A stretch of DNA of 64,000 nucleotides, from contig JARYHS010008074.1 of the NCBI GenBank assembly GCA_031002005.1, forward strand, positions 179,266,494 through 179,330,493, given 5' to 3'. Shown here one piece after another: positions 5,812-53,600 of this stretch. A model generated the notes under the pieces. The model was not told where the DNA came from, did no database searches, and saw only the letters and a list, made by a program, of their open reading frames with translations. This DNA comes from Vandiemenella viatica. Lineage: Eukaryota > Arthropoda > Insecta > Orthoptera > Morabidae. A program made the translations under genes and the position numbers. Position 1 is the stretch's first letter, and every line of letters starts with the position of its first letter.

Positions 5812-6012
5812 CGAGCGTGTGGGTGAGCGGTATTGTTCTGGTATTGCATTCACTGGACAAGGTTTCGAATCCCCGTCCGGCCATTCACAGTTCAATTTTT
5901 CATGACTTTGTGGAATCACTTCAGGCGAACGACGGCCTTGAAAAAGGCCATGGTCGAGTTCCATCCTGTTCGTTTCAATGACGCCATCGAGGCGTAAAGA
6001 CATAAAAAAAAA
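5812..6012 (+). repeat. SINE family A, diverged
   Basis: Head GAGCGTGTGGGTGAGCGG, B-box region TTTCGAATCCCCGTCC, shortened body (CTTCAGGCGAACG, AAAAAGGCCATGG) and tail ATCGAGGCGTAAAG with poly(A). Confidence 0.8.
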
Positions 6013-9335: not shown

Positions 9336-9440
9336 TGTCTAAGCCAAGTTAGTAACCGGAAGTCCATGCTTCAGGGATCTGCTACCATGCAGCATCGATA
9401 GCCAATCATAGCTGTCTGATAAGTTCTGAATTAAGGTACG

Positions 9441-9693
9441 GAGCGTGGTGGGTGAACGGTTAACGTTCTGGCCTCGCATTCGGGAGGACGGCGGTTCGAA
9501 TCCCCATCCGACCATCCAGATTTGGGTTTTCCATGGTTTCCGCAAATCATTCCAGGTGAAAGCCGGGATGTTTCCTTCAAAAAGGCCATGGCCGAATTCC
9601 TTCCCGTTCGTTCCTGGTTCCCAGTCCCAACCCACCTCTAATGACCTTAGCCGTCGATGAGGCGTAAAGTTACAGTAAAAAAAAAAAAAAAAT
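9441..9693 (+). repeat. SINE family A, near full length, with target duplication
   Basis: It starts GAGCGTGGTGGGTGAACGG, has B box GGTTCGAATCC, a full body and a 16-A tail. Flanks GAATTAAGGTACG (9428-9440) and GAATTTAGGTAACG (9694-9707) are an imperfect target duplication. One of the best-preserved copies. Confidence 0.9.
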
Positions 9694-18481: not shown

Positions 18482-18852
18482 TCAGACCGAGGTGGTGATC
18501 TGCTCGACCACTGTGACGGCAGGCTGGCGGCCGAGGCCCTCAGGCACGCTGCGGCAGGGCCTGACGGGTCGGGAAGGTCGCCAGTAGTCGTCTGCAGGCA
18601 GCGGCAGGTCGAGAGGAGCCGCAAACGAGATGCTCTTGTGGAGGCGAGGCCTGCCGCACACAGTGGCCGGGCCCACTGGCAGAAGGCCAGCTGCCCCCGA
18701 GCCGCCCCCACCGCCGCCGCCGCCCCCCTCCTCCCAGTCGCCGCCACCGCCTCCTCCACTGCCACCCACCAGGAACAGCAGCGCCGCACCAAGAAGCGTG
18801 GCCAGCAGGGAGAAGTAGTAGCCCGCCTTGGGATGGCTCTGGTTGATGTAAC
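18482..18852 (-). CDS. Transporter exon 7 (TM12, Gly-rich C-terminus, stop)
   Basis: The acceptor GGGTTTCAG precedes 18852; the stop is TGA at 18484-18482. It encodes YINQSHPKAGYYFSLLATLL (TM12), then a low-complexity Gly tract (residues 459-482, with a run of nine Gly), a Pro/Arg-rich cytosolic tail and the C-terminus EQITTSV. The last three residues (T-S-V) fit a class I PDZ-ligand pattern. The Gly tract is made of GGC/GGT repeats and may vary in length between individuals. The other open frames across this segment are shadows. Confidence 0.9.
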
Positions 18853-21800
18853 CTGAAACCCGGATAGAGAAGTAATCCCAGTTTAGTCTTCTGGACTTTA
18901 CCTTGGGAAATTTATCAGATAAATTGATTTCAACCCAATACTAATTTTCTTCAGTTTTTCAAGTTAACTCTCCTGTTCTGGCTTCTTTAAAGCTAGCGAT
19001 TAGCTAGAAGATGGTTCTGAATGGCGTATGCTGATGTGGAGAAATTTCCGTTTCTAGAAGTTTGCAAAGTATTAAATATTAAGCTGGATTGTGATGATTT
19101 ATTCACCATATAGTTGGCAATTGTTGGTGGGTTGGAATGATTCTACATGGATTTTTTCGGGTTTAGTAACAATCTAGAAGGGACGGTATATTCTAACGAA
19201 GTGAATGTCGCGTCTCGTCTACATCGAGGTCATTAAAAACGAGAATGTACTAAGGGCATGGAACGGGAAGGAACACGACAACGGCATTTTCGATGAAGCA
19301 AACCGAAATTCGCTTGGAGTGATTTCTTGAAACCATAGAAAGCCGAAATCTGGATAGCCGGAAGGGGATTAATGTGTACACCTTTGTCAATTGTCTAAGA
19401 TTTACAGGATCGAGGTTTTTGTGTACGTATGTGTGCTTTTTTGAAAATAGAGAGTAGTTGCGTATTTACTATCATGTTCACTGTACAGCCCCACGCGCAC
19501 CTTTAATGTGTGGCAAAACGCGCCTTGTTCACCATCTCCGCTGTAAATCGGAATATCTTCTTTCCTGCGGTGGTGGCGGATGCAGGGTGGTGTGTAGTCG
19601 GGGGTAACCGAGAGAGATTTCAAGGGTGATAACCCAGGTGTGCCCATTGGCCGGACCCAACATGCCTGGTAATTTGTTGTACCATAATTAATACGAGACT
19701 AGAGATGTGTCTTCGAATCCACCCAATTGTACCTTCCGTAAGAAAACCAACAAAAAACTGAATCCACATTTCACGGATCTCATTTCGTATAGCTATATAT
19801 ACGCCAAGAAAAAGTTTTTATAGGAAACTGATTTATGAAACAAAACTTTGTTTTCAAAGTGGATGAATATGATAAATCTAATAATTAAACACAGTGCTTC
19901 TTACCCGTTATGGGCACTCCAAGTAGAAGCGGCAGCGCCTCTGCGCCCTGCACGAAGGCCCACGCTCTGGCGAAGTACCTGGAGCGCACGCTCTCCATGG
20001 TGAACACCTTGAGCGAGTAGAAGAAGCCTCCCAGACACACTCCGTACAGCCACACCACCAGCACGTAGCCGTGGTAGCCCTGCACGCTGCCCAGCGCTAG
20101 CAGAGACACTCCTGCAAGACACAAACACACTTAAGTACCTGGAGCGCACGCTCTCCATGGTGAACACCTTGAGCGAGTAGAAGAAGCCTCCCAGACACTC
20201 CGTACAACCACACCACCAGCACGTAGCCGTGGTAGCCCTGCACGCTGCCCAGCGCTAGCAGAGACACTCCTGCAAGACACAAACACACTTAAGTACCTGG
20301 AGCGCACGCTCTCCAAGGTGAACACCTTGAGCGAGTAGAAGAAGCCTCCCAGACACACTCCGTACAGCCACACCACCAGCACCTAGCTGTGGTAGCCCTG
20401 CACGCTGCCCAGCGCTAGCAGAGACACTCCTGCAAGACACAAGCACACTTAAGTACCTGGAGCGCACGCTCTCCATGGTGAACACCTTGAGCGAGTAGAA
20501 GAAGCCTCCCAGACACACTCCGTACAGCCACACCACCAGCACGTAGCCGTGGTAGCCCTGCACGCTGCCCAGCGCTAGCAGAGACACTCCTGCAAGACAC
20601 AAACACACTTAAGTACCTGGAGCGCACGCTCTCCATGGTGAACACCTTGAGCGAGTAGAAGAAGCCTCCCAGACACACTCCGTACAGCCACACCACCAGC
20701 ACCTAGCTGTGGTAGCCCTGCACGCTGCCCAGCGCTAGCAGAGACACTCCTGCAAGACACAAGCACACTTAAGTACCTGGAGCGCACGCTCTCCATGGTG
20801 AACACCTTGAGCGAGTAGAAGAAGCCTCCCAGACACACTCCGTACAGCCACACCACCAGCACGTAGCCGTGGTAGCCCTGCACGCTGCCCAGCGCTAGCA
20901 GAGACACTCCTGCAAGACACAAACACACTTATGTACCTGGAGCGCACGCTCTCCATGGTGAACACCTTGAGCGAGTAGAAGAAGCCCCTCCCAGACACAC
21001 TCCGTACAGCCACACCACCAGCACGTAGCCGTGGTAGCCCTGCACGCTGCCCAGCGCTAGCAGAGACACTCCTGCAAGACACAAACACAATTAAGTACCT
21101 GGAGCGCACGCTCTCCGTGGTGAACACCTTGAGCGAGTAGAAGAAGCCTCCCAGACACACTCCGTACAGCCACACCACCAGCACGTAGCCGTGGTAGCCC
21201 TGCACGCTGCCCAGCGCTAGCAGCGACACTCCTGCAAGACACAAACACACTTAAGTACCTGGAGCGCACGCTCTCCATGGTGAACACCTTGAGCGAGTAA
21301 AAGAAGCCTCCCAGACACACTCCGTACAGCCACACCACCAGCACGTAGCCGTGGTAGCCCTGCACGCTGCCCAGCGCTAGCAGAGACACTCCTGCAAGAC
21401 ACAAACACACTTAAGTACCTGGAGCACACGCTCTCCATGGTGAACACCTTGAGCGAGTAGAAGAAGCCTCCCAGACACACTCCGTACAGCCACACCACCA
21501 GCACGTAGCCGTGGTAGCCCTGCACGCTGCCCAGCGCTAGCAGAGACACTCCTGCAAGACACAAACACACTTAAGTACCTGGAGCGCACGCTCTCCAAGG
21601 TGAACACCTTGAGCGAGTAGAAGAAGCCTCCCAGACACACTCCGTACAGCCACACCACCAGCACCTAGCTGTGGTAGCCCTGCACGCTGCCCAGCGCTAG
21701 CAGAGACACTCCTGCAAGACACAAACACACTTAAGTACCTGGAGCGCACGCTCTCCATGGTGAACACCTTGAGCGAGTAGAAGAAGCCTCCCAGACACAC

Positions 21801-23586
21801 TCCGTACAGCCACACCACCAGCACGTAGCCGTGGTAGCCCTGCACGCTGCCCAGCGCTAGCAGAGACACTCCTGCAAGACATCGACGAGGAATACTGGCA
21901 AATACTTATAGCTTCCTGAGGACACCGTTTAAGAATAAGGGAAAAATAATTAATTTTGATATACAGATTAAAGTTTTAGCAGAACAACGTCTCTATTTTT
22001 CAGCTCATAGGGCACTAATTTTTATTTCTACACAGATTGTAGAGGGTCAATCCGGTAAACAGAAGCAGCTGTAAAGACAAGTAATTTCTCACCCAAATGT
22101 TTCCCGAAAGATCAGTATCTACATAAAATGCCTTCAATTACGTCCATCTGCAAAAAATGGTTTTAGTTTTCGTATGGCTCTCGCCAAGAAAACCAGGTGA
22201 TTCAACATTTACGATTTGGATTAACCAGTGTAACTCCGACAAGTTGTGAAATACATCTGAATGATTTATCAAGGTAAATTTACTTTAATGCCGTATGTAT
22301 AAATTAAGAAATACACCAAAACCTGAGACCTTGACTTGTAGGACGCGATAACCATTTAAATTCCTGTCATCTCGTTATTGTCTTACAAGCAACTAGCGCA
22401 AAATCATTAGTCGAAGTTGATGGCAATAAGTGAAAGGATAATCATAAAATACAATTAGAAACCTGTGAGACAGCAGAGAATAGACTCAGGAGATTACCTT
22501 GTGGAGGATACAATAAGTGAAATCAGATGTTAGAAATTTGACACTTAATATCCACAGATTAACAACCAAGCAGGAACTGAGACAAACACTGGTGTTATGT
22601 TAATAATTTTAAGTCAGGAAACCTATCAAAAAGTTGTTCAATATTAGCAGTAAAAGAATTAGTGATATTACTAACTCTGAACTAGTCAGAATGCGGGCCA
22701 AAACTGGAACAACGGAAGCACAGACTTCAAGAAAGGTATTTTGAATGGAAAATAGTAATGTTGATCAAGGAGTAAGAGAAATAAAATTAACAAAAGGAAG
22801 CTGAACTCGAAATATGATTAGTTGCGTTGCTTCATAGCCTCTTTAGGCTACAGCTTTTCGTAGGGTTCAGGAAAATTAAAGACAAATTAATGAACTGTTA
22901 AAAAAAATGTGTGGAAAGCAAATGTTACAGTAAACTTTCTTATGAATCGTTAGAGAACCACATACGAGTAAGATTGATGCGGTGAAACTGAAACCACCGA
23001 CTACCTTTTTCACTGCTGAAAGGCAAGACAATAGCACGCCCGGCATCGGTAGCTCTGGTCTCGTGCTGATTGAGTGATACGTTGTATTTCCTCTTGTGAT
23101 TACTATTTACACCTTTTACCAAGCGTGGCTCAGGGAACTACTTCGTGACAACGAGGATGAAGAAGAGACGTTGGAGCACAAATGTAGAGAACCGAAATAG
23201 AGTAATGTTTTGATCATCAAGAAACACGAACACAATGAGACCGAATTGCTGAAATCTCATACTCCAATCTGTTAACTAAATTTACTGCGCAAAAATAAGC
23301 AAAGGTGTTTACCAGAGGATATAAGAACATTTAACCAAGCCTGATGGGTGAGCAGTAACGCCAAGGTTAGGCATTCAGCGGGATGTGCGTTCAAATTACC
23401 ATGCGAGCGTCCAGTTTTGTGGTGTCAATCGTTTCCCGAATTTACTCCAGACAAATGCCGGAATGGCTCTTTCAAAAGGCCATGGTGGAATTCTCTCCCG
23501 TGCCTTGTACCCGTCCTCTCTCGCCTAGAATAACTTCACTGTCAGTGAAGTTTAAAAACCACAACTCCCCCCCCCCCCACCCTCAC

Positions 23587-23619
<33 letters not shown>

Positions 23620-26600
23620 GCGCAGCACTTTTACAACTTTGGTGCATCAAGTAATGAAAACGTCATAATTTTTTTTTTAAAGTTATTCAAAAGTTTCGTA
23701 AAAGTTTCGTGCAAGTGTAGTGCAGCCTTCAGTTTATTTACTTACCGATGCCCACCATGGCAGCCTGACAGAGGTACTGCTTGGAGACGAGACATTGTTC
23801 GTTGGCTCGAACCACCATCAGGCCGAAACTGACGCAGCCTAGTGCAGTGGCGAATCCGAGGAACGTCTGCAGCAGTACCAGGGCGCTGTCATCCAGGCCC
23901 TCCTGGTAGCCCTGCAGCGCCTGTTCAATTAAACGCATACTTACTGTCCTGCAATTCGTATCACAGGATCGGCGTGCAGACAACGATAATGATACTGTGC
24001 ACCGTAAAGAAACTGAATGTAATTGTTTGGTTTGTTATATAGCTTTATCTAAAACTATGGCATCGTGGTAGGAATATTTTCACAAAATGAGTGCTGATTT
24101 CACTTATTAGTGATGACCAAAAGAAGGTTTACAGTCCGCACATTGAGGAGGTTGTATATGTCTCGGTTGAAATTCATTGACGTGTGTTTTCAGTTGGCAC
24201 CACACCTCTCCCATTCACAGATCTGGCTCCGACAAACATCTAAATATTTTTAATAGTAAATAGTTTAGATTCAGCAACCATTTCAACTTTATGACGTACT
24301 GTTAGCTGTCACCTCGTACTTTGACATTCTTGATAAGTTTTTAAACTCAGACGACATACTAACATTGCAGCCTAATTGAGAATTGCCGTAATAAACCATA
24401 GTCCCACTTCTGGATAAACTACATTACCTGACGAAGAAAGCTGAGGTAGCTGTCGAAACGTTCTGTTCTGATAAATTGTCATGCTGAACACCTGCGGAGA
24501 CTAAGTCGCATAAGTTCCCCTGGGGAAGATTCCATTGCCACGTTCGTCTAAGTTTAGTGGCAGTTTTACGTTCAACAAAGGATATATTAATATTGGACAC
24601 TATAATCATGTTAAAATTTTCTCACTGAAAGCGTCTTAAAGAATAAATGTATTTGCCATTAAGACGACGAAGATCTGTTTCCTTCCGAATCTTTAATTTA
24701 ATTTATGTGCAAGCGAGCATATGTCCCGCCGGCAATTTCCTGACCGACCAACTTACGCAATTCATGAATTTTTATTGACAGCTGCCACCTTTCTTTACAA
24801 ATTTTATGTTTCAATTGGTTCAATGTTTCTTGTTGACTAACAAGGCTGAGGGTTTTCTATAATAAAAAAATGTAATAGATTTCTCTTATACAGATTTTCG
24901 TAACTGTGCGAGTTAAATCATTCCCCTTAATGGTATGAAAAGTTTCTATTCCAGAAATTATTATTTGCAATTGATGTAACGGATGTCTCAGTTAGTGTGA
25001 TTGAAAGGTGTATTTGTTGAATGGGAAGTTATCACACGGGGGTCGAAAGTTACTGGTTCAAATCTGTGTCTGAGCTAGGATTTTAAAATATCTGCGAGTA
25101 GTTTGTTTCTTTATGGGAAATAAGTGAGAACAGTTAAGTGAAGTTATTCGAACTATACTATGTCCTGCATATACCCTCCACAAGACAGGCTTACCAGATT
25201 GCGTTTCGCCGCTAAGAAAACGGTGGATTGTTCACGCGGTTAGAAAATCCGACACTTGTGCATTTGTATTTGCATTTGTGAATTTTGCACAGCTGACAAG
25301 TGATTCCATGTGATAGCTTTTGTTACTCGTGCGGTAAAAGTTAGAATTTTTGTCAGGAAATGGAGAACTAAGTATTAATCCACGTTTTTTCTGTTCCGAA
25401 ATTAATAATAAAATAAAAATTAAAAAATCTCGGTATTGAATTTTGATGGTCTATTAAAATCAGTTGACACTGTTTTTATCCCTGCTTCAGAAGTCTTCAA
25501 GTCTCTATCTTTTCAGGGCATTATCATTTATTTTGAAATTAACACTATGAGGGATTCAATGAAGCAACTAATTTCTAATGTTATCGTTGTTGTTTGTAAA
25601 AGATTTTGTGGTTTTCACAGCCGTGATGATGTCTTAAAGAACTAGTCGAGATTTACGTTGCGTCTCAGAGACTCCTCCTTTTCCAAACGTTTTGTGCAGC
25701 CTTCTTCATGGGACTTAGTAGACTTAGTCTCCTGCTAAGTCTACTAGAGACTGGAGTTGTGACCGGTTGTTTAGTATTTGTGGGGACTATCGAATCTCTA
25801 GCAACAATCGACTACCCAGAGATATGATGCTTACGATTTAATGTGTTTTTTCACTGTTGTTTATTTGTTAACACACATTTCCATGCTCGGCTTGGACCAT
25901 ATCCAAGATCTTTATTAATGTTGATTGGATAACTCGAAAATCGTAAGCATTGTACCTCTTGGTATCCGATGTTCGCTAAAATCGAAAGCATCATATCTCT
26001 GCAATCGATGTTTACTAGAAATTCGATAGTCTCTATAAATACGAGAACAATCGGTCGCAATGGCAGTATCTAGCAGACTCAGCAGGAGGATAGTTACCTG
26101 AAGATGACCATAGGCTTTGATCGGAAAGTCGAAAAAATGAGGAGTGTTTGTGACACAGCATAAATCTCGCGAAGTTAGTTGTTGTCTGTGGCGTGGGAAA
26201 CAACGTGCATTTTACATAATGAATAGTCTCATCAAGGCCCTTGGTTAGGCTTACCAGGTAGAAGACGGGCGTGTAGATACCGAGAGCACCAACAGCGGAG
26301 GCGAGCATGAGCACCTGCACCGCTCTGATGCGCAGCGGCATCAGGTCGAAGAAGGGCGGCCGCGGCAGCAGGAAGCCCTGGTGCTGCGGCGACTGGGTCG
26401 GCTTGCGAGTCGGCTTGGACTTGTTGCGCTGGCTCTTGAGGAGCGAGATGACTCTGCGCTGTGGGTGGTACATGGAGGCGGACCTGTAGAGCGCGCCCAG
26501 GAAGAAGGACAGGCAGAGCAGCACCGTCACAGCCTGCAGTCCCAGGCGCCAGCCCCACTGCCTGCCGGAAACAACGGGCTACAACCACTGCTTCAGGTAC

Positions 26601-29600
26601 GATCGTAACAGCGAATATTTTTATTTCCCTATGGCTAGCAATATTTATTAGAGACACTTCAACATTCTTTCATAATCTCTGCTATTCCCTTGGGACGACG
26701 CTGTCCATGCAGGTGCGTGATCATAAAAAAGCAAAGACACCAATTAAAGTGTCTCCCAGACAATAACGTAACGTTAATCATTTGTTCTTCGTCGTTACTG
26801 TAACTGACAACATTACAACGTTCGCTGTCGTACTTATATCAAGGCATGGATTTGAACCTAAGATTTCTTTCTTTATGTACGAGGTATAGCTGTAAAATAA
26901 CTTCTACAGAAGTAGTACGCACGTGAGAAGCCTTCTCTTTCGAATGCAGCGCTCCCCATGTATGTAAACAAATCAGTCTGGCCGTAACTTTTATTTGTAT
27001 AAGAGCTATTGTAATAGAGCAACAAATTGTCATGAAATTTCACATGAAACTTAAAAAAAAAACGCTACTGAAACTTATCTTTCATTACATGAAGCGTATG
27101 GTAACTTATGTTTATCACGTGCACGATTTTTGAGCATTTCCAAGATGGCCGAGAAGCAGTTGAAGATGATTCTTGATAGGGTCGTCCTGCAATGTCGAAA
27201 ATGGATAAAATTGTTGAAAAAGTCGGTAATCTGATTCGATTTGACCATCGCTTAGCCAACCCTCAGATTCTTACTCAACTCCGTAAAAAAATAAGAACAA
27301 GAAAACAGCTCGAAATGTTGAAGAGCAATAATGGTTTCTCCATCACGACAACACCCCTACTCATTCTGCAATGTCTGTCAAGAGGTTTCTAATGAATTAC
27401 AACATCCCAGTGTTAGACCATCCACCTCTTTCGCCTGACTTTGCACTATGTGAATTTTATCTGTTTTACAAGGTCAAATATGCACTAAAAGGAACAATAT
27501 TTCAGTCAGTTGAAGCTGTGATAGAAAAAGCGACAAGTGTCAAAAATCAGCTCACAGAAGAAGACTTCCAGCACTGTTTGGAAAATTGAAAATTCGTATG
27601 AAAAATTGTAGGGATAAAGCAGGGATGTATATTGAAGATGATAATAACTAGATACGTGTCAATTCAAAACATTTTTTTTTTTTTTTTTTTACAGCAATAG
27701 TCTTGTTATTTTGTAGCCACACCTCTTATTATGAGAATGATGGACGTCGGCTGGGTATGCTGGTTAAGGAAAACGCGACCCATTATTATGATTCCTTACT
27801 TTGATGACATATAAACTTCGTCTTATCTTGGTTCTCCGGGTGGAGCCCCGTCGATTTATTAAAATCTAACGTTTCAGCCATCATGCATTGGCTATCATCA
27901 GAGGCCTGCCGTATCTGTTGCCGATGTCACTTATATAGCCGAGGGAACGCGCGGTCACTAACCATCCACGATGACGTCACGGACGTTACCGCACCTAGAG
28001 TAAGCCGTCGTCTTGCGTTCTTCTCAGCAGGTATGAACAAATATGATCAAGACTGTCAGCATTCATGTTGTTATGTCTCTTTTGTATTTTTAGTTTCTCG
28101 CCCACTTTTGCCACCATCTGCTCTCTACGGCCTCAATGCTGGTCTGCTTATACCTAACGTTAAAACAACGGTTGATAACTAATTCTACTGTTTTCATGAA
28201 TTTATAAAAGAAAAATAACATTTTAGTGAATCATAAGTTCGCTGGTAAAAATTCCAATGAATGTATGGAGAGAGAGCAGCATACGAGAAGACAGTTTCAC
28301 CATGCACTTTTCCAACATACTTTTATTTATATATCCCTCACGATAATTATTTGAATATTTACGTTGTAAGTTTGCTACTGCGAATAATTCTTGTATTTCA
28401 TAAATACAACACTAACACTAATTTCTGGGAGGACAACTGGGATAAGACGTTAATAATTGATAGGTTTTAATGCGTTGTGAACTTCTTGAAACTAATGTGC
28501 CTTCATTTTTAGCTACCCTTAAACTGATCTTCACCTCTTGAAAGCTTAGCTTTCTTCATGTGAAGCACAGACTCTCTTACTCTGTGACATTAGAAGGTTA
28601 ATTCAGGACAAGGCCTGTGAGCGCGCAAATTGAAGTTGACACCTGGGTAGCCCAACTACTCTTTGGGGTCTCCTGGCTATGACTACCTTTAAGATTTAAA
28701 TTCTATTACTGGCCTCATATTTGAATAACAATATATATATTTTTTTTTTTACTTGTGAACAAACGATTTGAAATCTGCTTTGCTAAATCGAATTGTTTTA
28801 AACTGATTTTTTTTTAATGCTTCTGGCCTCGCATTCGGGAGGACGCTGGTTCGAATGCCCGTGCGGGCATCCAAATTTAGGTTTTCCATGGTTTTCCCAA
28901 ATCACTCCAGGTGAATGCCGGGATGCTTCTTTCAAAGGTAATGGCCAAATTCCTTCCAGTTCCTTGTTCCCAGCCCCATCCCGCCTCTAGTAACCTCGAG
29001 GTCAACGAGGCGTGAAGTCATAAGTAAAAAAAAAGTATAATGTTCTAGTTTGCCCACACCATAACGCATAATATATTTTTGCCTAAATCTAAAATTATTT
29101 ACTATTCAAAACGAGTGGGTTTAATATTTCTTACAATATGATACATATAAAACATTTTCAGTTAAACCACTTTTCGAATAACACCTAGTAGCAAAAAATC
29201 ATAAGAACAATGAACTGCATCCTAGAAATGGAACTAAATTTGTGCTCCACTCCCGGTATAAAATTATTTATTACTCAAAGCGCGTGGGTTTACTATTTCA
29301 TACAAGATGATACAAATAAACCATTTTCAGTTAATCCACTTTTGTGAATAATACCTAGTAGCAAAAAACGGCAAGAACAATGAACTGCATCGTTGAAATG
29401 GAATTCAATTTGTGCACCACTCCCGGTGTCCGCTCATAGGCGGTTACAATAGCAACGTTGCGGGAGATGAAGTGAGGTAATTTTCCGTTGCTTTTATTAG
29501 TGTTCAAGAGCATAGAAGTGTTATTGTAGGCGTGGATTACTGTAACGATAAGTGTGTTCAGTGTACACAGTTGGGGTTTAGAGAGAACAGAACACAGAGA

Positions 29601-32600
29601 GAGTGAAGCGCGACGTCTATCCGTTTAAGATTACTCTTCAGAAAACCATCAAGCGATGTGATAAATTTTGACTGTCCACCTCAAAACGCGTCACTATCAA
29701 CAGGGTGGTAGGATCTCATTACATACGCCCTGCTGGGACTTCGGTAAATAATCTAATGACCAAGAGTGGTGCACCGCCACCTTTGTTTCTCTTCCGGCTA
29801 ACTAACTATGATGTTAATTTCTTACGCCATCTGGACTCGAACACGATAAATGCGTAAACCATCTTAGTACACCATCGACCTAAGAGCTAACGGAGTGGAT
29901 AATCATTAAAATTATGTTGCTGACTGCTGGTGATTGACCCATATCTGCTCTCTACTGGAGACATTTTAAATGACATTATTCCCTTAGAATTCAAGATTTT
30001 CATGATTCCTTCAAGTCCAATTAGGAAAAAAATCTAATAGCCACGATATTCTGAAGACGAATTTTAAGAGGTAATTCCGTGGGTGGAGAGCCTGCTACCT
30101 GAGTCTATGCTGAGAGACTAATCCCCACTTGTATGCTTTGCTGATAAACAACAAAGGCGTTATTTGAAGCTTCTTAGCAGTAGCTAAATTGCTCTCAATA
30201 ACTGCTAAATAGTTAATTGGCTATTCCAAATATCAAATAAAAAGTAAAGATATACTGAACTTCAGTGGCTAAGCGAGGTTAATTTAGGAAAGAGTAATCA
30301 GAAGTATTATTTTTCGTACAATTCTTTTGAGCATATTTTAATAGAAGACTTGCTCCTGCAATTGAATTAGGTATAAATTGACGCCCTGTGACATCACAGG
30401 TTGGCGTCTACTCACCCGACGGCCTCCCTGTAGAGCACGGAGAAGAGGGCGATGCCGACGCCAGCGCCCGCCTGCACAACCATCTCGACGAACTCTCGTC
30501 GGCGTCGAAAGTAGTGGCCGAGCGTCAGCGACGCCGTCTCCCTGACGAGGCCGCTAGACACCCCCAGCAGCACCCCGTAGCTACGACACACACACAGGCA
30601 CATGCGGCAGCTGTCGTCACACAATGCTATACATCTTATCTCCTGCACCACCATCTCGACGAACTCTCGTCGGCGTCGGAAGTAGTTGCCGAGCGTCAGC
30701 GACGCCGTCTCCCTGACGAGGCCGCTAGACACCCCCAGCAGCACCCCGTAGCTACGACACACACACAGGCACATGCGGCAGCTGTCGTCACACAATGCTA
30801 TACATCTTATCTCCTGCACCACCATCTCGACGAACTCTCGTCGGCGTCGGAAGTAGTGGCCGAGCGTCAGCGACGCCGTCTCCCTGACGAGGCCGCTAGA
30901 CACCCCCAGCAGCACCCCGTAGCTACGACACACACACAGGCACATGCGGCAGCTGTCGTCACACAATGCTATACATCTTATCTCCTGCACCACCATCTCG
31001 ACGAACTCTCGTCGGCGTCGGAAGTAGTTGCCGAGCGTCAGCGACGCCGTCTCCCTGACGAGGCCGCTAGACGCCCCCAGCAGCACCCCGTAGCTACGAC
31101 ACACACACAGGCACATGCGGCAGCAGTCGTCACACAATGCTATACATCTTATCTCCTGCACCACCATCTCGACGAACTCTCGTCGGCGTCGGAAGTAGTT
31201 ACCGAGCGTCTGCGACGCCGTCTCCCTGACGAGGCCGCTAGACACCCCCAGCAGCACCCCGTAGCTACGACACATACACAGGCACATGCGGCAGCTGTCG
31301 TCACACAATGCTATACATCTTATCTCCTGCACCACCATCTCGACGAACTCTCGTCGGCGTCGGAAGTAGTTGACGAGCGTCAGCGACGCCGTCTCCCTGA
31401 CGAGGCCGCTAGACACCCCCAGCAGACCCCGTAGCTACGATACACACACAGGCACATGCGGCAGCTGTCGTCACACAATGCTATACATCTTATCTCCTGC
31501 ACCACCATCTCGACGAACTCTCGTCGGCGTCGGAAGTAGTGGCCGAGCGTCAGCGACGCCGTCTCCCTGACGAGGCCGCTAGACACCCCCAGCAGCACCC
31601 CGTAGCTACGACACACACACAGGCACATGCGGCAGCTGTCGTCACACAATGCTATACATCTTATCTCCTGCACCACCATCTCGACGAACTCTCGTCGGCG
31701 TCGGAAGTAGTGGCCGAGCGTCAGCGACGCCGTCTCCCTGACGAGGCCGCTAGACACCCCCAGCAGCACCCCGTAGCTACGACACACACACAGGCACATG
31801 CGGCAGCTGTCGTCACACAATGCTATACATCTTATCTCCTGCACCACCATCTCGACGAACTCTCGTCGGCGTCGGAAGTAGTGGCCGAGCGTCAGCGACG
31901 TCGTCTCCCTGACGAAGCCGCTAGACACCCCCAACAGCACCCCGTAGCTACGACACACAGAAAGGCACATGCGGCAGCTGTCATCACACAATGCTATACA
32001 TCTTATCTCCTGCACCACCATCTCGACGAACTCTCGTCGGCGTCGGAAGTAGTTGCCGAGCGTCAGCGACACCGTCTCCCTGACGAGGCCGCTAGACACC
32101 CCCAGCAGCACCCCGTAGCTACGACACACACACACAGGCACATGCGGCAGCTGTCGTCACACAATGCTATACATCTTTATCTCCTGCACCACCATCTCGA
32201 CGAACTCTCGCCGGCGTCGGAAGTAGTGGCCGAGCGTCAGCGACACCGTCTCCCTGACGAGGCCGCTAGACACCCCCAGCAGCACCCCGTAGCTACGACA
32301 CACACACACGGACACATGCGGCAGCTGTCGTCACACAATGCTATACATCTTTATCTCCTGCACCACCATCTCGACGAACTCTCGTCGGCGTCGGAAGTAG
32401 TTGCCGAGCGTCAGCGACGCCGTCTCCCTGACGAGGCCGCTAGACACCCCCAACAGCACCCCGTAGCTACGACACACGCACACACACAGGCACATGCGGC
32501 AGCTGTCGTCACACAATGCTATACATCTTATCTCCTGCACCACCATCTCGACGAACTCTCGTCGGCGTCGGAAGTATTTGCCGAGCGTCAGCGACACCGT

Positions 32601-35600
32601 CTCCCTGACGAGGCCGCTAGACACCCCCAGCAGCACCCCGTAGCTACGACACACACACAGGCACATGCGGCAGCTGTCGTCACACAATGCTATACATCTT
32701 ATCTCCTGCACCACCATCTCGACGAACTCTCGTCGGCGTCGGAAGTAGTGGCCGAGCGTCAGCGACGCCGTCTCCCTGACGAGGCCGCTAGACACCCCCA
32801 ACAGCACCCCGTAGCTACGACACACACACAGGCACATGCGGCAGCTGTCGTCACACAATGTTATACATCTTATCTCCTGCACCACCATCTCGACGAACTC
32901 TCGTCGGCGTCGGAAGTAGTTGCCGAGCGTCAGCGACACCGTCTCCCTGACGAGGCCGCTAGACACCCCCAGCAGCACCCCGTAGCTACGACACACACAC
33001 AGGCACATGCGGAAGCTGTCGTCACACAATGCTATACATCGTATCTCCTGCACCACCATCTCGACGAACTCTCGTCGGCGTCGGAAGTAGTTGCCGAGCG
33101 TCAGCGACGCCGTCTCCCTGACGAGGCCGCTAGACACCCCCAGCAGCACCCCGTAGCTACGACACACACACAGGCATATGCGGCAGCTGTCGTCACACAA
33201 TGCTATACATCTTATCTCCTGCACCACAATCTCGACGAACTCTCGTCGGCGTCGGAAGTAGTTGCCGAGCGTCAGCGACGCCGTCTCCCTGACGAGGCCG
33301 CTAGACACCCCCAGCAGCACCCCGTAGCTACGACACACACACAGGCACATGCGGCAGCTGTCGTCACACAATGCTATACATCTTATCTCCTGCATCACCA
33401 TCTCGACGAACTCTCGTCGGCGTCGGAAGTAGTGGCCGAGCGTCAGCGACGCCGTCTCCCTGACGAGGCCGCTAGACACCCCCAGCAGCACCCCGTAGCT
33501 ACGACACACACACAGGCATACACATGCGGCAGCAGTCGTCACACAATGCTATACATCTTATCTCCTGCACCACCATCTCGACGAACTCTCGTCGGCGTCG
33601 GAAGTAGTGGCCGAGCGTCAGCGACGTCGTCTCCCTGACGAGGCCGCTAGACACCCCCAACAGCACCCCGTAGCTACGACACACACACACAGGCACATGC
33701 GGCAGCTGTCGTCACACAATGCTATACATCTTATCTCCTGCACCACCATCTCGACGAACTCTGTCGGCGTCGGAAGTAGTGGCCGAGCGTCAGCGACGCC
33801 GTCTCCCTGACGAGGCCGCTAGACACCCCCAACAGCACCCCGTAGCTACGACACACACACAGGCACATGCGGCAGCTGTCGTCACACAATGTTATACATC
33901 TTATCTCCTGCACCACCATCTCGACGAACTCTCGTCGGCGTCGGAAGTAGTTGCCGAGCGTCAGCGACACCGTCTCCCTGACGAGGCCGCTAGACACCCC
34001 CAGCAGCACCCCGTAGCTACGACACACACACAGGCACATGCGGAAGCTGTCGTCACACAATGCTTTACATCGTATCTCCTGCACCACCATCTCGACGAAC
34101 TCTCGTCGGCGTCGGAAGTAGTTGCCGAGCGTCAGCGACGCCGTCTCCCTGACGAGGCCGCTAGACACCCCCAGCAGCACCCCGTAGCTACGACACACAC
34201 ACAGGCATATGCGGCAGCTGTCGTCACACAATGCTATACATCTTATCTCCTGCACCACCATCTCGACGAACTCTCGTCGGCGTCGGAAGTAGTTGCCGAG
34301 CGTCAGCGACGCCGTCTCCCTGACGAGGCCGCTAGACACCCCCAGCAGCACCCCGTAGCTACGACACACACACAGGCACATGCGGCAGCTGTCGTCACAC
34401 AATGCTATAAATCTTATCTCCTGCATCACCATCTCGACGAACTCTCGTCGGCGTCGGAAGTAGTGGCCGAGCGTCAGCGACGCCGTCTCCCTGATCGAGG
34501 CCGCTAGACACCCCCAGCAGCACCCCGTAGCTACGACACACACACAGGCACATGCGGCAGCAGTCGTCACACAATGCTATACATCTTATCTCCTGCACCA
34601 CCATCTCGACGAACTCTCGTCGGCGTCGGAAGTAGTGGCCGAGCGTCAGCGACGTCGTCTCCCTGACGAGGCCGCTAGACACCCCCAACAGCACCCCGTA
34701 GCTACGACACACACACAGGCACATGCGGCAGCTGTCGTCACACAATGCTATACATCGTATCTCCTGCACCACCATCTCGACGAACTCTCGTCGGCGTCGG
34801 AAGTAGTTGCCGAGCGTCAGCGACGCCGTCTCCCTGACGAGGCCGCTAGACACCCCCAGCAGCACCTCGTAGCTACGACACACACACAGGCACATGCGGC
34901 AGCTGTCGTCACACAATGCTATACATCTTATCTCCTGCACCACCATCTCGACGAACTCTCGCCGGCGTCGGAAGTAGTGGCCGAGCGACAGCGACGCCGT
35001 CTCCCTGACGAGGCCGCTAGACACCCCCAGCAGCACCCCGTAGCTACGACACACACACAGGCACATGCGGCAGCTGTCGTCACACAATGTTATACATCTT
35101 ATCTCCTGCACCACCATCTCGACGAACTCTCGTCGGCGTCGGAAGTAGTTGCCGAGCGTCAGCGACACCGTCTCCCTGACGAGGCCGCTAGACACCCCCA
35201 GCAGCACCCCGTAGCTACGACACACACACAGGCACATGCGGCAGTTGTCATCACACAATGCTATACATCGTATCTCCTGCACCACCATCTCGACGAACTC
35301 TCGTCGGCGTCGGAAGTAGTTGCCGAGCGTCAGCGACACCGTCTCCCTGACGAGGCCGCTAGACACCCCCAGCAGCACCCCGTAGCTACGACACACACAC
35401 AGGCACATGCGGCAGCTGTCGTCACACAATGCTATACATCTTATCTCCTGCACCACCATCTCGACGAACTCTCGTCGGCGTCGGAAGTAGTGGCCGAGCG
35501 TCAGCGACGCCGTCTCCCTGACGAGGCCGCTAGACACCCCCAGCAGCACCCCGTAGCTACGACACACACACAGATGCGGCAGCTGTCGTCACACAATGCT

Positions 35601-38600
35601 ATACATCTTATCTCCTGCACCACCATCTCGACGAACTCTCGTCGGCGTCGGAAGTAGTTGCCGAGCGTCAGCGACGCCGTCTCCCTGACGAGGCCGCTAG
35701 ACACCCCCAGCAGCACCCCGTAGCTACGACACACACACAGGCACATGCGGCAGCTGTCGTCACACAATGCTATACATCTTATCTCCTGCATCACCATCTC
35801 GACGAACTCTCGTCGGCGTCGGAAGTAGTGGCCGAGCGTCAGCGACGCCGTCTCCCTGACGAGGCCGCTAGACACCCCCAGCAGCACCCCGTAGCTACGA
35901 CACACACACAGGCACATGCGGCAGCTGTCGTCACACAATGCTATACATCTTATCTCCTGCATCACCATCTCGACGAACTCTCGTCGGCGTCGGAAGTAGT
36001 GGCCGAGCGTCAGCGACGCCGTCTCCCTGACGAGGCCGCTAGACACCCCCAGCAGCACCCCGTAGCTACGACACACACACAGGCACATGCGGCAGCAGTC
36101 GTCACACAATGCTATACATCTTATCTCCTGCACCACCATCTCGACGAACTCTGTCGGCGTCGGAAGTAGTGGCCGAGCGTCAGCGACGCCGTCTCCCTGA
36201 CGAGGCCGCTAGACACCCCCAGCAGCACCCCGTAGCTACGACACACACACAGGCACATGCGGCAGCTGTCATCACACAATGCTATACATCTTATCTCCTG
36301 CACCACCATCTCGACGAACTCTCGTCGGCGTCGGAAGTAGTGGCCGAGCGTCAGCGATGCCGTCTCCCTGACGAGGCCGCTAGACACCCCCAGCAGCACC
36401 CCGTAGCTACGACACACACACAGGCACATGCGGCAGCTGTCATTACTAATTTTACTTGTACTTAGTATTACCTGGGTGTCAGCACAACCGTCCCGGCGTA
36501 ACATATGCTCAGTGCTAGTATCATTTCAAATGTGTAAGTACATAATCCATTACTTATCAAAGAAGGTGCGTGGGGAACTGCAACGACAGATAAAAAACGC
36601 GAATAGTAAATCTAGAATATGGTTCCGGTGGCTCACTCCGTCCACCAGCTATGTCGTGAACACCGAGACAGCTATTTCCTGGAGCTCCGTAGAAACGATG
36701 TTACTGACCGGAGCCGATGAAATAACAAGACGTATATTAATATCGTAACTTCCATTAAGTTTAATTATCTTAGCATTTTGTTTTAGATTAATAACGCTAA
36801 TTTATTAAAAACAGATGGAAAAAACTTTACGGCAAAAAATGCTGAATAAAATTGGTTTTTACAATTAAATGTAGTCCTTCTGTCATTCGTCATTGCCATT
36901 TTTCAGTCACTATTTTCTCGCTTCATGGCAATCTTTAGTTATTTACAATGGTCGTCAGACTTTAGGTTTCTTCAGACTGGAGGTTGAGTGAGAATTTTTA
37001 ATTACGTTTTATTTCATTTTTTCGTTGAATGCCTGTTCACTGTATCTACATTTTCTTGATTGTAATTCTTTACATTTTATGTTTTTGGGGTTCAATAATC
37101 TGTCCATGTTTAATATTTCTGTTAATATTTCTAAGTCCCTTCAAATTCAGGAGATTTTATACACATTTTGCAAAGGGAACCCTTGGAATGAAACACAGTT
37201 CAGATTCGCGTTTCATCCAAATTAAGTCATCCTATCATGATCGTCAACCCTAAAAATGGGAACTAATATTGACCTGTCACCACACCAAAAACACGGTCAC
37301 AATAAATTTAGAATAATCCTTTTTTTTTCATGTGGCAAGATAAATTAACGAAATAGCGAGGTCGACGCTAGCTGAAGCCAGAGAAGGAGTGTCACTGAGA
37401 GATACCTTGGCCATCCAGTAATCTTCCCTCTCCTCAGAGACACATATTTACTTTTTGCTGGGAGGAATCGTGCTAATTTCTTTGAACCGGAAGTCTTCTC
37501 TCCTGGTATAAGCGTGATAAGGACTCTTCTCGAGATTAACCTTCTCTGCTCGCGTACAATTAATCCTTACTTTTCCTACCCTCGTCCATCCGCTTCGGAA
37601 GTGGAAAATCTCGTACTTTGCCAATGAAATTTGTTGTGTTCAGTGAGAGATGAGTTCATGTTGCAGTAAAAAAAGCCGAAACCATGCTTTAGAAATTATA
37701 TACATCCAACGGTTGTTAATACGAGAAATAGCTATAATTAAACAATAGCTTGTTGTACTTCATACAACCATTCTTAGGCATACGTGTTTATCTTTTAAGA
37801 CCAATTACGCTAAAAATTTCCTTTTATAAAACAGGTTATGATTGCTAAGTGTATTCAACCATCATCTATTTCAAGTTAATGCATATTAATTTCAAAGCTC
37901 CACTCATTGGCAGCTAATCAGAACTTTCAACACTCAGCAATAGCACTTTGATTAACAGTACGGAGATTTTAATAATTGCAATGTTTCCTCTTCATAAAAT
38001 ACACTGACATATAGTATGAGTAACCGAGAAGCTCCATTTATATTTGACAGAATGTGAAAACAAACTGGGACACAAAAAAAAGCACCAATTTCGAATGTTT
38101 ATGACAACACTGTACTTATAAAAGAGCATGTTGGTAATTTTTTTCACTTTCCTCTTTATACGTTGGTTTCTTTCCATACTTAACGCTCCAAACATCAGCT
38201 CGTTTTCTTTAATGCTTTAATCCAAGCTTTGTTCACCTTTCTCTCAGTGTTAAATGTCGTCAAGAGCTTATTTCATTAATCCTGGGCGTAATACTGTACC
38301 TTAATAAGCAAACTTTGTTTATTGTTCCCATGATGTTGATGTAACAAAGCGTTACGGGTTTCCAAAATAGACCTGAAGTGTTTGTCTGAGCTATTTAATA
38401 AGCATCCTGCTTTCTGTTTTGTTTGTTACGTAAGCTTTAATTTTATCTCAAAACCTTAATTAGAGTCCCGCATCCCTATTTATGAAGGTATTTTGCCTCT
38501 ATGTGGTAGGTGAATCCAACTGCAGGGTTTCTAAACAAACCCAAAAAATAAGAAAAAACTCAAGTTAGTGCGATATGGCTACTCATTAAAACTGCCATGA

Positions 38601-41600
38601 ATAATACTGGAGTGACAACGGTATGCAACGGTTAAATATAGTAAAAATCGTTTTCCTATTAAATTAAAAGCATATATTGAGTAATCTTAACAACATTGTG
38701 ACATAATGTAGATTTGTTGTGCAATCCGCATCATTAATGATTTGTGGTTTGGGATGTGTAAAATTGAACTGATTATTCTCTTTAAATATAAAGAAAACAC
38801 AGTAAATACAATTTCTCTAATTGATTCACTGTGGTGCATGGATGAAAAATACTAGTTTGTACTTTGAATTAGACTCCGTAAATATAAAGCAAATAACTAT
38901 CGGAATAAGTAGAAATATTGTTTCAGTAATGGTAAAAATGGAATAAACTGACGAATAAAGATTATAATAATGAAGATTACTGTTATTTGAATAATGAATT
39001 TGTTATTATTATAACGAGGATAGTTGGTTAAACCAACCGTGAAAAATTATGTTTCGATAATTTTATCAAATGCACTTCGACCCGGCACAGTTACCAAGCC
39101 GTAAAGTAATGGCTATGAGAAGAATTTATTGCCGGTACACGATTTTTTTTTTTTTTTATCTTGCATTTATCATCTTATTTCATTCTGAAACATGGAACAC
39201 TGAATCATATGGAAGCAATGTAGAGTATTATTTAAGAAGAGAAGTATTCATTTTGCTTTCAATGCTTCCATATGTTTTACTAACACTAAATTCACGCCAA
39301 CCAGAATACAATAGACCCATTATTTTAACTGATTTCAGCTTTAACGACGTAAAAAGAGTAACTGTACACATCAAATGTCAGAGTGAACATCTTCGATGAA
39401 AACCTAAATATATGACGCATAGAATAATCGATTAGAAAGAAAACATGTGGCATATTCCTCTCACAGCTTACCTGTGATACAGCATCAATGCTTGAGACTG
39501 GACTGATAGTTAGAGCACAATTAACTTAAGCATTTTATACCACCTGTGCAGCAGGAAGAACTGAAAATTGAATCCAAGGATGGGAACGACGATAAATTAG
39601 AAATTAGATAATTACCCAAGAGAACAATTAATATATCGATAAATAAATTCAATTTTTCACATTCCTAAAAGGATCTTGTTAAAAAAAAAACCTAAACATT
39701 TACATGTAAACCGTTCAGTGCTTTCAGTTTATAACAATTTACAACTATACATTGTACAGTATTAAAAGCATATAGCATTTCTTCTGCGTGTAGTCAGCTA
39801 GTGAGCATTAATACTAACTTAGCTCTACAAAGTATTGGAATGGGTGCAGCTGAGCCAATGGCGTGCACTTACAAAGGGCAATAACTTAATTCTCATATTG
39901 AAAACTGTTCCTCTTAAGAGTTAATATACTGGTTTATCGTATATCATTTTATATGTCTTTTACATTATCGACCGATAAAGTGGCAAAAATTGCTAGTTTA
40001 TTATGAATCACGTGAGAATTACTTGTAAACACTTACCAACTTGAATAAACCGGGACTTATATTGGCAGTAATGAAGCAAACTACTTTAATGTATAAAAAT
40101 TTATTATGAAACAATGTGTGGGCATAATTATGTGCTGGAATTACCTGAGCAGCAGCTGGTGCAGCTGAAGGGCGAAGGAGGCGAAGAGGCAGGCGAGCGC
40201 CATGACGAGTCCCGCCAGCATGGCGGTGAGGCGCGTCCACTTGCGACGACACAGCGACACCGCCAGCGGCGCCGCCAACAACGACGTCGACGCGCTCAGC
40301 GCGCCCAGCCACGCTGTGCACGACGGACATTATGCTACAGCTGCCTAATACTACAACTGTGGCGAGTTAGCTTCACGACGCTCGCAGTAATATCTGTTCA
40401 TATCAGTCTCTGTAGTACTGGAGATACAAGAAGCGAACCCAGACACAATTATCGACTCACAACGAAAACAGGTCATGACAGATTTCTTGCCATGATTACC
40501 GCTTCTATGACAGAAACGATTCCACAGCAGTGACCCATTGTATTGGCCCAACAATTAAAACACGCTGTGTTACGTGGCATTAAATTGATTTTTCCTCCCG
40601 TCATGGCTTTTCACCTCGTCAACATAGGTCATTACAGACAGGAAGAACGGGAAGGAATTCAGTTATAGTCTTCTGAAGGTAACATACAGGCATTCGCCTG
40701 AATTGATTAGAAGGAACAGTGAAAACCAAAATCTTGATGACTGGACTGGAATTTCATCTTCTTCTTCTTTTTTTTTTTTTTTTTTTTTTTTTCAGCTAGC
40801 CTATTACTTCTGCCCGACAGACATAAACACGCCATGCAGTCAGACATGTTAACTTTGCCACAACAACAGTGATCATTTTATTTTTCTCTACGAGCCATAT
40901 ACGTACACAGTATATTCCTTGTAGAATACGTTAACGGATATGTTAAAACTATGATTCATGTGCATGTTCATAACACGGTTGCCAACCACGTGAAAATTTT
41001 TCAGAGATCATGTCACTCTAATAATTTAAATAGAATGTTTATATAACTAGAATCAGTTGTCAATTTTTTACGGTTACAATAATTGCTGGATGATATTTAA
41101 CCGTTTATTGCTTTATGTTACTGCAATCAGTCCAAAAACTATTTATGGCTGCGTACTTAGATTAATTAATACATCAATCAAGCAATAATATAACAAATTT
41201 AACTTAAGCTTAAATAATTTTTTTGCTTGGTTTCCAGCTGAAATGTCAAAGTGCTAAAGATACACAATTTATTCTGGACACATCTCACCAAACACGCTGC
41301 GAGGAAAATGACTGAAATCTTTTATTTGAAATTGCATGCTCGTGGAATGGCCATAGCTCTGTTAAACAAACGAAGCATTAATACCGACCGCTGTTTCTGA
41401 TTTCTTGAACGATGATCAAACGTATCATCTCCTCTCTCCGCTTCTCGTCTTCCCTTCATCTAGCTCTGTTCCCTTTGATGCAGGCCAATATTCACTCTAC
41501 AGTCTCCGGAAGTAAGTGACAGTTCGACAATCCATCAATGTCTTCGCCGTGGTTTTCTTTTGATCGCTGATGACAGATGCGCCGATCAAAGCAACGACGG

Positions 41601-50600: not shown

Positions 50601-53600
50601 TGTCCCTTTTTTCCCATGATAGTTCATTATAAGCCTTGATTCCATTACCTAATAAAGTAGGCCGAAGGCATAAGAAGCATAGCAGTCACCAATAAATCTT
50701 ACAGTAGTACTTAATTCATCCATTTGGATTATTTAAGAAAGAATGAAAAAATGTTTTACCATTGCTGGGTAGGTAAATCTAACAACATTACGATTTTATT
50801 TTTAAGGAGTCTATTGTCAATTTAACATTTCTACCTGTTCGCAAGTATTTTGTTAGTTAAAAATCCAAGTCCTCACTTTGTCTGCCCAAGGTATGCGAAG
50901 GTTAAGATAGAGCTCATTATTACTGTTGCGTAGTAACCCCAGCAGTGAGGCTTCAATTTGGTTGCAATTATGTTGCTAGATCCAACGACTAGAAAAGTAT
51001 TATATATCCTTAGTCATGCACAATATTTTGCGATTTATTTGAGATCAGTTCTCTGAATCGTTCAATTCCTTTCCGAAAATGATATACGGACTGATGCGTT
51101 CATATACATAATAATGGAAGTATTTTTCCATATCACCGCAACTATGCCAGAAAATTTGGAAATAATTTCGAGGTGAATTTGGATATTTGATGTCATAACT
51201 ATAATTTATTAATAGTTTCTTTCTATCTCTTGAAGTCTTGGGAATCTGACAATGTAATAATAATTATTTTGTATGGTCTTAAAGACCTTGTGACAGTATT
51301 TCTTGCCGGATGCTTAATACGGCTCTATCGTAGCCACGTAACCTAATCCTTCAATCCTACCACGGTTATAGTACTTGCCATTTAGCTTGGAATCCTAACT
51401 ACGGGACGTCTTTAAGTAATTCATATTCATAACAAAAGCTTTGGCAGAGGTGAAGATCAATTCTGGAGCCAGAAAAACTTTCATTATAGACCATGATTCG
51501 AATCGGTGACTTTTTCATCCCCAATCAGAGTTCTCAATACGCTAAGACACCACCTAGATTTACTGATATGGTGTATGTAGTTGTAACAGTGCATAGCATC
51601 CATCTGGACCCATACACTAAAAGCACCTACTGCTATGAACAACAGTTAGTCGCCCCTTGTGGGATTGCTCATGTATAACATAATCTGGGACTACATGCCA
51701 TTAGAGAAGCTGTTGTTAAGGTCTGCTACTCCCGGTTATTTCCCTCAATCAATGTCGAGAGTACAATTTACGCATAAATCTCTGATGCAAGAGATGCACT
51801 TTCTCGGGTTTGTATCAGAAAATTCGCAACGGCTTTATTTGTGGGGAGGATTTCTTGTTTATAGCTGTGTCAGTGGCGGCAAAGTTAATTCTGGAACGAT
51901 TCTATAATTTGATGACTGCTATTAACAAATCCGGATATTTGTAGTAACGAGCGAAAGCATTTGTAATCTCCGAGGAACAAGTCAAGTGTATCAAGTAGTA
52001 AGGACAGTTGTGTTTAACAGAAGCAAATGATCCTGGGCAATAAGTTGTGGGGACTTGATGTGAGGTTTTGGAGCGGCAGTATAATTGTTGACGCCATGGT
52101 GATCAAAGACGTCGCACGCTGTTCCATGAGCAGCATTCCATGCCTCGCTCAAATTCTTTCCATTTACCTCATGTAGAATTTATGACTGTTAGTGTAACCG
52201 TTTCCCATTTAATTATTGCTTCTTGTTTCTCGTGGTGTTCATGCACATAATAAAACACCTCGGAAGATACGCAGATGTGATACCTGAATGTACTATTGTT
52301 TTCCTGGCTACTCTGCCCCTGTTATCTCTCTCTTTATACTTTTCGTGTTCTCCTTTGCATTCTGATTCGATCTAGGCGATCTTAATGCCTCCTGAAACGA
52401 TAGACATTCCCTCCACGAAGTGGCGTGTTCTCTCTGGCAACTGCCATGTTTCGCTCGTGTTTGTTCTGTTAGCTTGCCTTCCATTGTGTAGTGAAACTAA
52501 GCGAACTTTATCCATCTATACAGAATTGTACAGTATCTCACTGAATGTCATTTCGTTGGTATCTCATGCATTGAAATGGTCTCAGAGAGCTTTTGTATCG
52601 TTCTACTCGAATCCTAGTCCGCCAGCTATAAATACCATTCGAATCCCTCTCTTCTGTTACAGTAACTTGGTATACCCACAATGATGTGTATGACTTGGTT
52701 AAACTTCGTAACACTTCTGTTTCAACAACTTCTATGTTCACTATTTGCGGTAGTCAGTTTTTAAACACCTAGAATGGTCTCTTTTAACAACCAGTACTTT
52801 TAAAAAGTTATTTCATTTTACATATGTACGTAAAAGCACTTACGTACTCGTAATTGTGACTGCGAGATTTTTCACATTCTACTTCAAGCAGTAAGCTCTA
52901 TACACAACCTTCAAGTTCCTTGGAAACTTGTCACATGGTTCATTCGAATATGATATCTATTCCTCCTAGTGGAAAGATTTTTCTCTGTTGCACCAGCACT
53001 GATTTTTGTGTGTTCGGCGACCAATATCTTGGTTGTCCCTGTTGTCTGGAGCTACTAATGGTGGAGATCGATATTTGATTGGATTTCTGTGACACTTTGA
53101 GCTTATTTCGTTTTTATGCTTCATTAGTTTCCATTCTTACTTTTCCCGTGCTCCTATTTATGCCAGGTCCACACAATATATCACTTGCATTAACCACGTT
53201 TTCTGGGTCTGATATCATATATTACTCTTCACTTTTATAATAGGAACGGGGTACAATATTTCCATTTCTGAGGCGCTTCCCGTTTTACTTTACACTGCCT
53301 ATTCTCGTGTCCATTGTTATACGGAAAAATATCCGTAGCTGAAAATCTTATTCACCACCTTATACTATATGCCAAGTCGTCTATCACTTTGCCAAATTCG
53401 CAGTCTGCAAGCGTAATTCTAAAATAATGTCAGAGGTACTCGCAATGCCAATATCTGTAACCACTTAACCGCTCTTACGAATTCAAAGAACAACGTTGTG
53501 TGGTTCCCCTTCAGTCACAACTAGGCTAACTGTTGACTTGAAAGTGCCTCACCAGAATCGATGACTGCGTTCTCTCCGAGGTGCCTCACAGTGTAGAGGT

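Follow-up and report, generated by a model that had tools for sequence, protein, structure and literature searches.

How can a gene be spliced correctly when two of its exons are each preceded by a long row of near-copies of their own acceptor? The question is raised by a stretch of 64,000 nucleotides from the orthopteran insect Vandiemenella viatica (assembly GCA_031002005.1, contig JARYHS010008074.1, positions 179,266,494 to 179,330,493 of the forward strand), which carries on its minus strand a transporter gene of the SLC16 (monocarboxylate transporter, MCT) family. We refer to this whole stretch (64 kb, zero N) as the window and give all coordinates as positions within it. Exons 3 and 6 of the gene are each accompanied by a tandem array of acceptor-side partial copies, with 35 units in the first case and 12 in the second. 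The reading that we prefer, and to which we assign a probability of about 0.68, is that two neutral amplifications took place and were tolerated since an intact exon lies downstream of each, the last copy being the one that is spliced.

Two acceptor-side arrays in one gene

Tandem Repeats Finder (TRF) reported an array of period 171 at exon 3 (34.8 copies, 97% matches, 6.0 kb) and an array of period 160 at exon 6 (11.9 copies, 97% matches, 1.9 kb). When cut at fixed points, the former (array 3; 30471..36441, minus strand) resolved into 35 units of 171 bp with a mean pairwise difference of 2.2%, and the latter (array 6; 19973..21881, minus strand) into 12 units of 160 bp with a mean pairwise difference of 1.6%; both counts include the complete exon and come from one assembly. 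Both arrays consist of head-to-tail, near-identical units, as satellite and minisatellite arrays do.

The units of the two arrays are built alike. An exon-3 unit combines an intron tail of 35 nt (ending in TAG) with 109 of the 165 nt of the exon and 27 nt of junction sequence, and an exon-6 unit an intron tail of 10 nt (ending in CAG) with 139 of the 207 nt of the exon and 11 nt of junction sequence, so that about two thirds of the exon lies inside the unit in both cases. Joining the 3' side of an intron to the 5' side of an exon, they are of the type published for the potato RdRp gene, to which we return below. The AG acceptor is retained in 35 of 35 copies of array 3 and in 12 of 12 copies of array 6, the latter having been cut at a motif that contains AG; all pieces of array 6 measured 158-162 bp, and hence no unit was missed. 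We refer to the incomplete upstream copies as decoys.

Compared with each other, the two arrays have nothing in common above the level of chance words (best E 2.4); a common origin was rejected since the alignments consisted only of words of chance length. Further copies of either unit were not found in the rest of the 64-kb window (best E 0.33). A preliminary description of this stretch, made from its letters, had counted 12 exon-6 units of 160 bp and about 35 exon-3 units of 171 bp, had described the unit as intron tail, 3' splice site and first two thirds of the exon, and had claimed one architecture for two arrays without common sequence. TRF, the cutting into units and the comparison of the arrays bore out each of these statements.

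The flank just upstream of each array is unlike the unit junction, and because of this difference the acceptor of the present complete exon must sit behind sequence that was born in the array. At 20112-20138, the array junction (GTACTTAAGTGTG...) precedes the acceptor of the complete exon 6; the branch-site region there is array-born and unlike the sequence before the first copy, near 21890.

Among the 34 upstream units of array 3, six of the 12 length changes fall at unit positions 15-24, in or beside a TG-rich run that precedes the acceptor. The units concerned start, on the minus strand, at 35587, 33710, 33537, 32507, 32329 and 32155. The decoy acceptors of array 3 therefore vary partly in tract length.

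The transporter gene

Seven exons on the minus strand, when joined using only the last copies of exons 3 and 6, give a single open frame of 551 codons with a terminal stop and consistent phases, and GT and AG are present at all six introns. The model begins at the first coding exon found (exon 1, 53553..53816), which was recognized by homology and bears the MCT signature PEGGWGW; neither a start codon nor an earlier exon was located. It continues with exon 2 (40145..40313; donor CAG/GTAATT at 40145, the slash marking the exon end), exon 3 (30416..30580, the sole complete copy, 165 nt; donor CGG/GTGAGT), exon 4 (26255..26561), exon 5 (23746..23920; donor TCG/GTAAGT), exon 6 (19905..20111, the sole complete copy, 207 nt; donor CGG/GTAAGA) and exon 7, which includes the stop codon (18482..18852). 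Introns 2 and 5, with the arrays included, measure 9.6 and 3.6 kb. The junction coordinates 40145, 30580, 23746 and 20111, which the preliminary description had proposed, are correct by this exon model, and the most downstream copies are indeed the complete exons, as it had stated.

In a PDB sequence search, the encoded protein matched MCT8, MCT2, MCT10 and MCT1 (E 4e-26 to 7e-16, within residues 31-459), and the Pfam MFS_1 match reached 56.3 bits versus a cut-off of 33.4. MCT-related sequence of the MFS fold extends across most of the length of the protein, which places it among the SLC16 (monocarboxylate) transporters. Its best relatives are the MCT12-like proteins of Schistocerca gregaria and S. 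serialis cubense, with 82-83% identity over 94%, and in an alignment with six relatives exons 3 and 6 are each single in every relative. With standard splice sites and an intact frame, the gene most likely encodes a working SLC16-type transporter.

Donor-like sites and the reading frame

We scored donor-like sites by the number of matches, out of nine, to the consensus MAG/GTRAGT, a crude count. The six real donors of the transporter gene score 7 or 8 of 9 on this scale. Upstream of the real exon, array 3 (5.9 kb) contains 660 GT, none scoring above 6/9; its decoys therefore have, by this count, no partner donor. Among control introns, the neighbouring one held 14 donor-like sites of at least 7/9 in 3.7 kb, and two others, of 1.86 and 3.85 kb, held 3 and 5. 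In array 6, all 11 upstream units carry a donor-like site of score 7, one apiece, which reads CAG/GTACTT in ten units and CAG/GTACAT in one and is in every case without A at +4 and without G at +5. The earlier claim that the last copy is the sole one with a donor therefore stands for array 3 and falls for array 6. Judged by these scores, array 3 would be a series of acceptors without good donors, and array 6 a row of putative pseudo-exons of 131-135 nt.

Most other choices of acceptor would cost the reading frame. If an array were retained as one long exon, the full frame would survive for five of the 35 exon-3 acceptors and for one of the 12 exon-6 acceptors, the true acceptor being counted in both. 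A single exon-6 decoy, included as a cassette by means of its CAG/GTAC donor, would add 131-135 nt and break the frame in 10 of 11 cases, with unit 6 (135 nt) keeping it. A working gene would therefore have to use the last exon-6 acceptor in nearly all cases and, for exon 3, any of acceptors 31 to 35, the transcript otherwise being lost. A search for RNA structure that would hide the decoys was negative for the one two-unit stretch folded per array, whose folding did not stand out from that of shuffled sequence (z 0.35 and 0.64). According to the analysis of alternative sites in PMC9225289, large flanking introns go with a preference for pairing between those sites that lie closest to one another across the exon. 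The prediction from this rule is use of the last copy, a firm one for array 3 and a weaker one for array 6.

The exon-3 unit is open over its 57 codons, and acceptors 31 to 35 of array 3 would yield full-length frames with four to zero extra 57-residue repeats. The complementary strand is open too, for up to 741 codons, and we therefore take the open frame of array 3 to be a by-product of composition and of a unit length divisible by 3. With the repeat frame as query, a protein search found 33 proteins whose alignments each span 16-17% of it, the length of one unit (counting the best local alignment alone, with 7999 candidates scored and subject to length limits). The 741-codon frame that the exon-3 array produces opposite the gene strand (31413-33638) is a trap for automatic gene prediction.

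Drift and history of the units

When only decoys were counted, those of array 3 differed by 2.3% over the intron tail, 2.1% over the exon portion and 2.5% over the junction, exon and tail thus being about equally variable; those of array 6 differed by 0% over the 10-nt tail, 1.7% over the exon portion and 4.6% over the 11-nt junction. Synonymous changes made up 4 of the 16 exon-part variants among array 3 decoys (0.30 expected, P 0.79) and 3 of the 8 among array 6 decoys (0.29 expected, P 0.70). The former figure replaces a count of 6 of 18 to which two variants present in the complete exon alone had contributed. Coding constraint on the decoys was not detectable in these synonymous fractions, which match chance. 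A stop codon, due to one variant, is found in 3 of the 12 exon-6 units (units 2, 8 and 10), and 17 of the 35 exon-3 copies lack (16 Asn, 1 Lys) a histidine that all seven aligned proteins share. The complete exon-3 copy has kept it, and the two differences of its own from the consensus in the shared part are both synonymous. The decoys behave as non-coding DNA, the counts being small.

With insertions ignored, 27 of the 34 upstream units of array 3 and 9 of the 11 of array 6 are distinct. Array 3 also contains a block of six units that is repeated in order (units 11-16 correspond to units 17-22; 32679..34736, minus strand), the shared variants following in identical order. A run of such weight, six units at lag six, was met in 0 of 5,000 unit shuffles (permutation P 0.0002) in a test that was devised once the block had been noticed and that excluded private variants, gaps and insertions. 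The block favours real unequal exchange over simple assembly inflation and leaves the copy number itself unproven.

Other repeats in the window

A two-copy tandem repeat of 169 bp, with copies 86-87% alike, lies at 29090-29427 in intron 3 of the transporter gene, between the two arrays. The window has only three tandem repeats with a period above 100 bp, and their periods of 160, 169 and 171 bp are each about one nucleosome repeat. In addition, a dispersed repeat of about 200 bp is present in five main copies that are 81-88% alike (584-797, 9438-9689, 28821-29038, 49730-49933 and 57621-57865) and in weaker copies, some of them inverted (3263-3449, 5803-5974, 19211-19370, 23334-23534 and 58494-58600). 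By size it resembles a short interspersed nuclear element (SINE); scans of the window for Rfam families (at the gathering threshold) and for tRNA gave zero matches.

Comparison with known systems

In mutually exclusive exons, whole exons with both splice sites are duplicated and maintained by selection. The arrays described here resemble such tandem exons in that exon sequence is repeated within one gene, but their copies lack the exon end and the true donor and are drifting, 3 of the 12 exon-6 units containing a stop. The IFI6 gene (G1P3, 6-16) is said, in work attributed to Turri et al. in 1995, to carry a minisatellite at an exon-intron boundary that gives rise to multiple splice donors. 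If so, IFI6 shares with the present gene the multiplication of a splice site by a tandem repeat lying at the edge of an exon, whereas the IFI6 repeat is reportedly on the donor side, short in its unit and used as a set of alternative donors.

For the potato RdRp gene, one tandem duplication of the 3' side of an intron together with the 5' side of the exon has been published, and a new intron was detected (PMC4974935). As that paper presents the case, the duplicated unit comprises the 3' intron side with branch site, pyrimidine tract and acceptor plus the 5' exon side, much as in our arrays, and a cryptic exonic donor was recruited that is comparable to the CAG/GTACTT of array 6. On the potato trait of a donor-like site between copies, the two arrays differ: 11 of 11 upstream units of array 6 carry one (7/9), and 0 of the 660 GT of array 3 reach that score. 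The potato account concerns one duplication at one exon, whereas here there are 12 and 35 copies at two exons, seen in genomic DNA. A multiple 24-bp AGGT duplication in fission yeast is also cited in PMC4974935.

On the donor side, the 25-bp variable number tandem repeat (VNTR) of human ABCA7, as characterized in PMC5954066, starts with the exon 18 donor in intron 18, and its length tracks the skipping of exon 19. It shares with the arrays reported here a high copy number and the inclusion of a coding exon's splice site in the tandem repeat, and alleles of up to 9.7 kb are given in that paper. Unlike our arrays, and again going by the description in PMC5954066, it involves the donor, has a 25-bp unit that is intronic from the GT on and so holds no exon sequence, and is known to vary in length.

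Multiplication of splice sites by tandem repeats was therefore already known, and the apparently new part is the acceptor side, the high copy number and the presence of two arrays in one gene. The suggestion in the preliminary description that no such case had been described keeps its force for paired high-copy arrays; for the rest it gives way to the single duplication of the same kind of unit in potato and to the donor-side array of ABCA7, as these appear in PMC4974935 and PMC5954066. A high-copy array of acceptor plus partial exon, two in one gene, was not found in the open-licence literature among the matches listed, which is no proof of absence.

Proposed origin of the arrays

We propose that a short tandem duplication chanced to span an intron-exon boundary, and that this would have happened in two exons of the gene. 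Each duplication would have been tolerated, as a complete exon with acceptor and donor remained downstream. From each pair of copies, unequal exchange or replication slippage may then have built, in two separate events, a satellite-like array with units of nucleosome length. The extra copies would then lie effectively within introns 2 and 5 as acceptor decoys, drifting free of coding constraint, and the large introns would favour exon definition, such that the acceptor nearest the true donor, that of the last copy, is chosen and the normal protein results. The steps that we infer are thus one initial duplication per array, expansion via unequal exchange and splicing of the last copy. The decoy reading agrees with the neutral drift of the extra units and with splice-site pairing as set out in PMC9225289. 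A partial likeness of the two arrays would be expected on these terms, because a duplication that spans an acceptor leaves an intact downstream exon and survives selection.

Several observations weigh against this explanation. Two arrays of like design in one gene exceed what independent rare events readily give. The first duplication event was not reconstructed, as the source of the junction sequences was not found in the window: when words of 10-13 bases from the 27-nt junction of array 3 and the 11-nt junction of array 6 were sought beyond the arrays, on either strand of the window, each junction had a single 10-base match (3630; 29549), taken as chance. In array 6, the junction (4.6%) varies more than the exon part (1.7%) and the tail is invariant, and since variant counts are small there may be weak constraint. 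Given their donor-like sites, some of the array 6 decoys may be spliced in. Finally, the post hoc run test stands beside an all-lag periodicity test in which lag 6 was best, with P 0.0006 for that lag and 0.10 across all lags, which is not significant.

Competing explanations

The decoys might instead be used, with array length setting a mis-spliced fraction that is destroyed by nonsense-mediated decay, so that copy number would tune the dose of the transporter as in ABCA7. With the array kept as a long exon, an upstream choice would lose the full frame for 30 of 35 acceptors in array 3 and for 11 of 12 in array 6, the breaking of the frame by 10 of 11 exon-6 decoy cassettes points the same way, and in ABCA7 the length of the VNTR tracks both exon 19 skipping and expression, as described in PMC5954066. 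However, the decoys show no sign of selection, good donors are absent from array 3 (none of at least 7/9 among 660 GT), and no structural device was seen, the two-unit folds being ordinary. We consider this explanation unlikely.

The arrays might also be an artefact of assembly or library preparation, in which a small duplication or an amplification product was inflated. An internal match of 97% and lengths of 1.9 and 6.0 kb are in the range where copy number can misassemble. Yet most upstream units are distinct (27 of 34 and 9 of 11), shared variants recur in the repeated six-unit block, the edges of the arrays are unlike the unit junctions, and a misjoin might alter the copy number but would hardly create the units. 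An artefact is, on this evidence, improbable.

It is distinctly improbable, in our judgment, that the arrays are local samples of a genome-wide process of the lineage that turns exon edges into nucleosome-length arrays, with nothing special about this gene. In favour of such a process are the occurrence of two such arrays within one gene and the location of the only other tandem repeat with a period above 100 bp in the window, the two-copy one in intron 3, in the same gene. By hand arithmetic, a random 165-bp segment in 64 kb would cover one of the seven acceptors with a probability of about 0.02 and do so twice with about 0.0003, the latter figure being a post hoc one that carries a bias from the way in which the finding was selected. 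That only harmless duplications survive, however, would account for part of the likeness.

That the exon-3 array is a coding repeat whose isoforms would contain extra copies of a transmembrane segment is very improbable, and was rejected: full-length frames do follow from five of the 35 acceptors, but the full frame fails for the other 30, unit length and composition explain the open frame, the proteins found with the repeat frame align over one unit each in their best local alignment, and the invariant histidine is missing in 17 of 35 copies.

Implications

The two amplifications suggest how a coding exon can give rise to a satellite array while the gene itself is kept. A wider claim, which we hold to be rather unlikely but worth stating, is that in this large-intron orthopteran lineage a process repeatedly amplifies nucleosome-length, acceptor-side exon edges, so that many genes would carry a natural series of decoy acceptors. 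If exon-edge arrays were frequent, they would put gene annotation at risk in insects with large genomes. If the process were real, the gene would be a natural splicing experiment with an array of each type within one transcript, where the number of units would tune the correct splicing of array 6 and not that of array 3. One transcript would offer 35 near-identical acceptors without good decoy donors together with 12 that have pseudo-donors or the true donor, and RNA-seq junction counts from it would reveal how strictly the nearest donor dictates the choice of acceptor among decoys.

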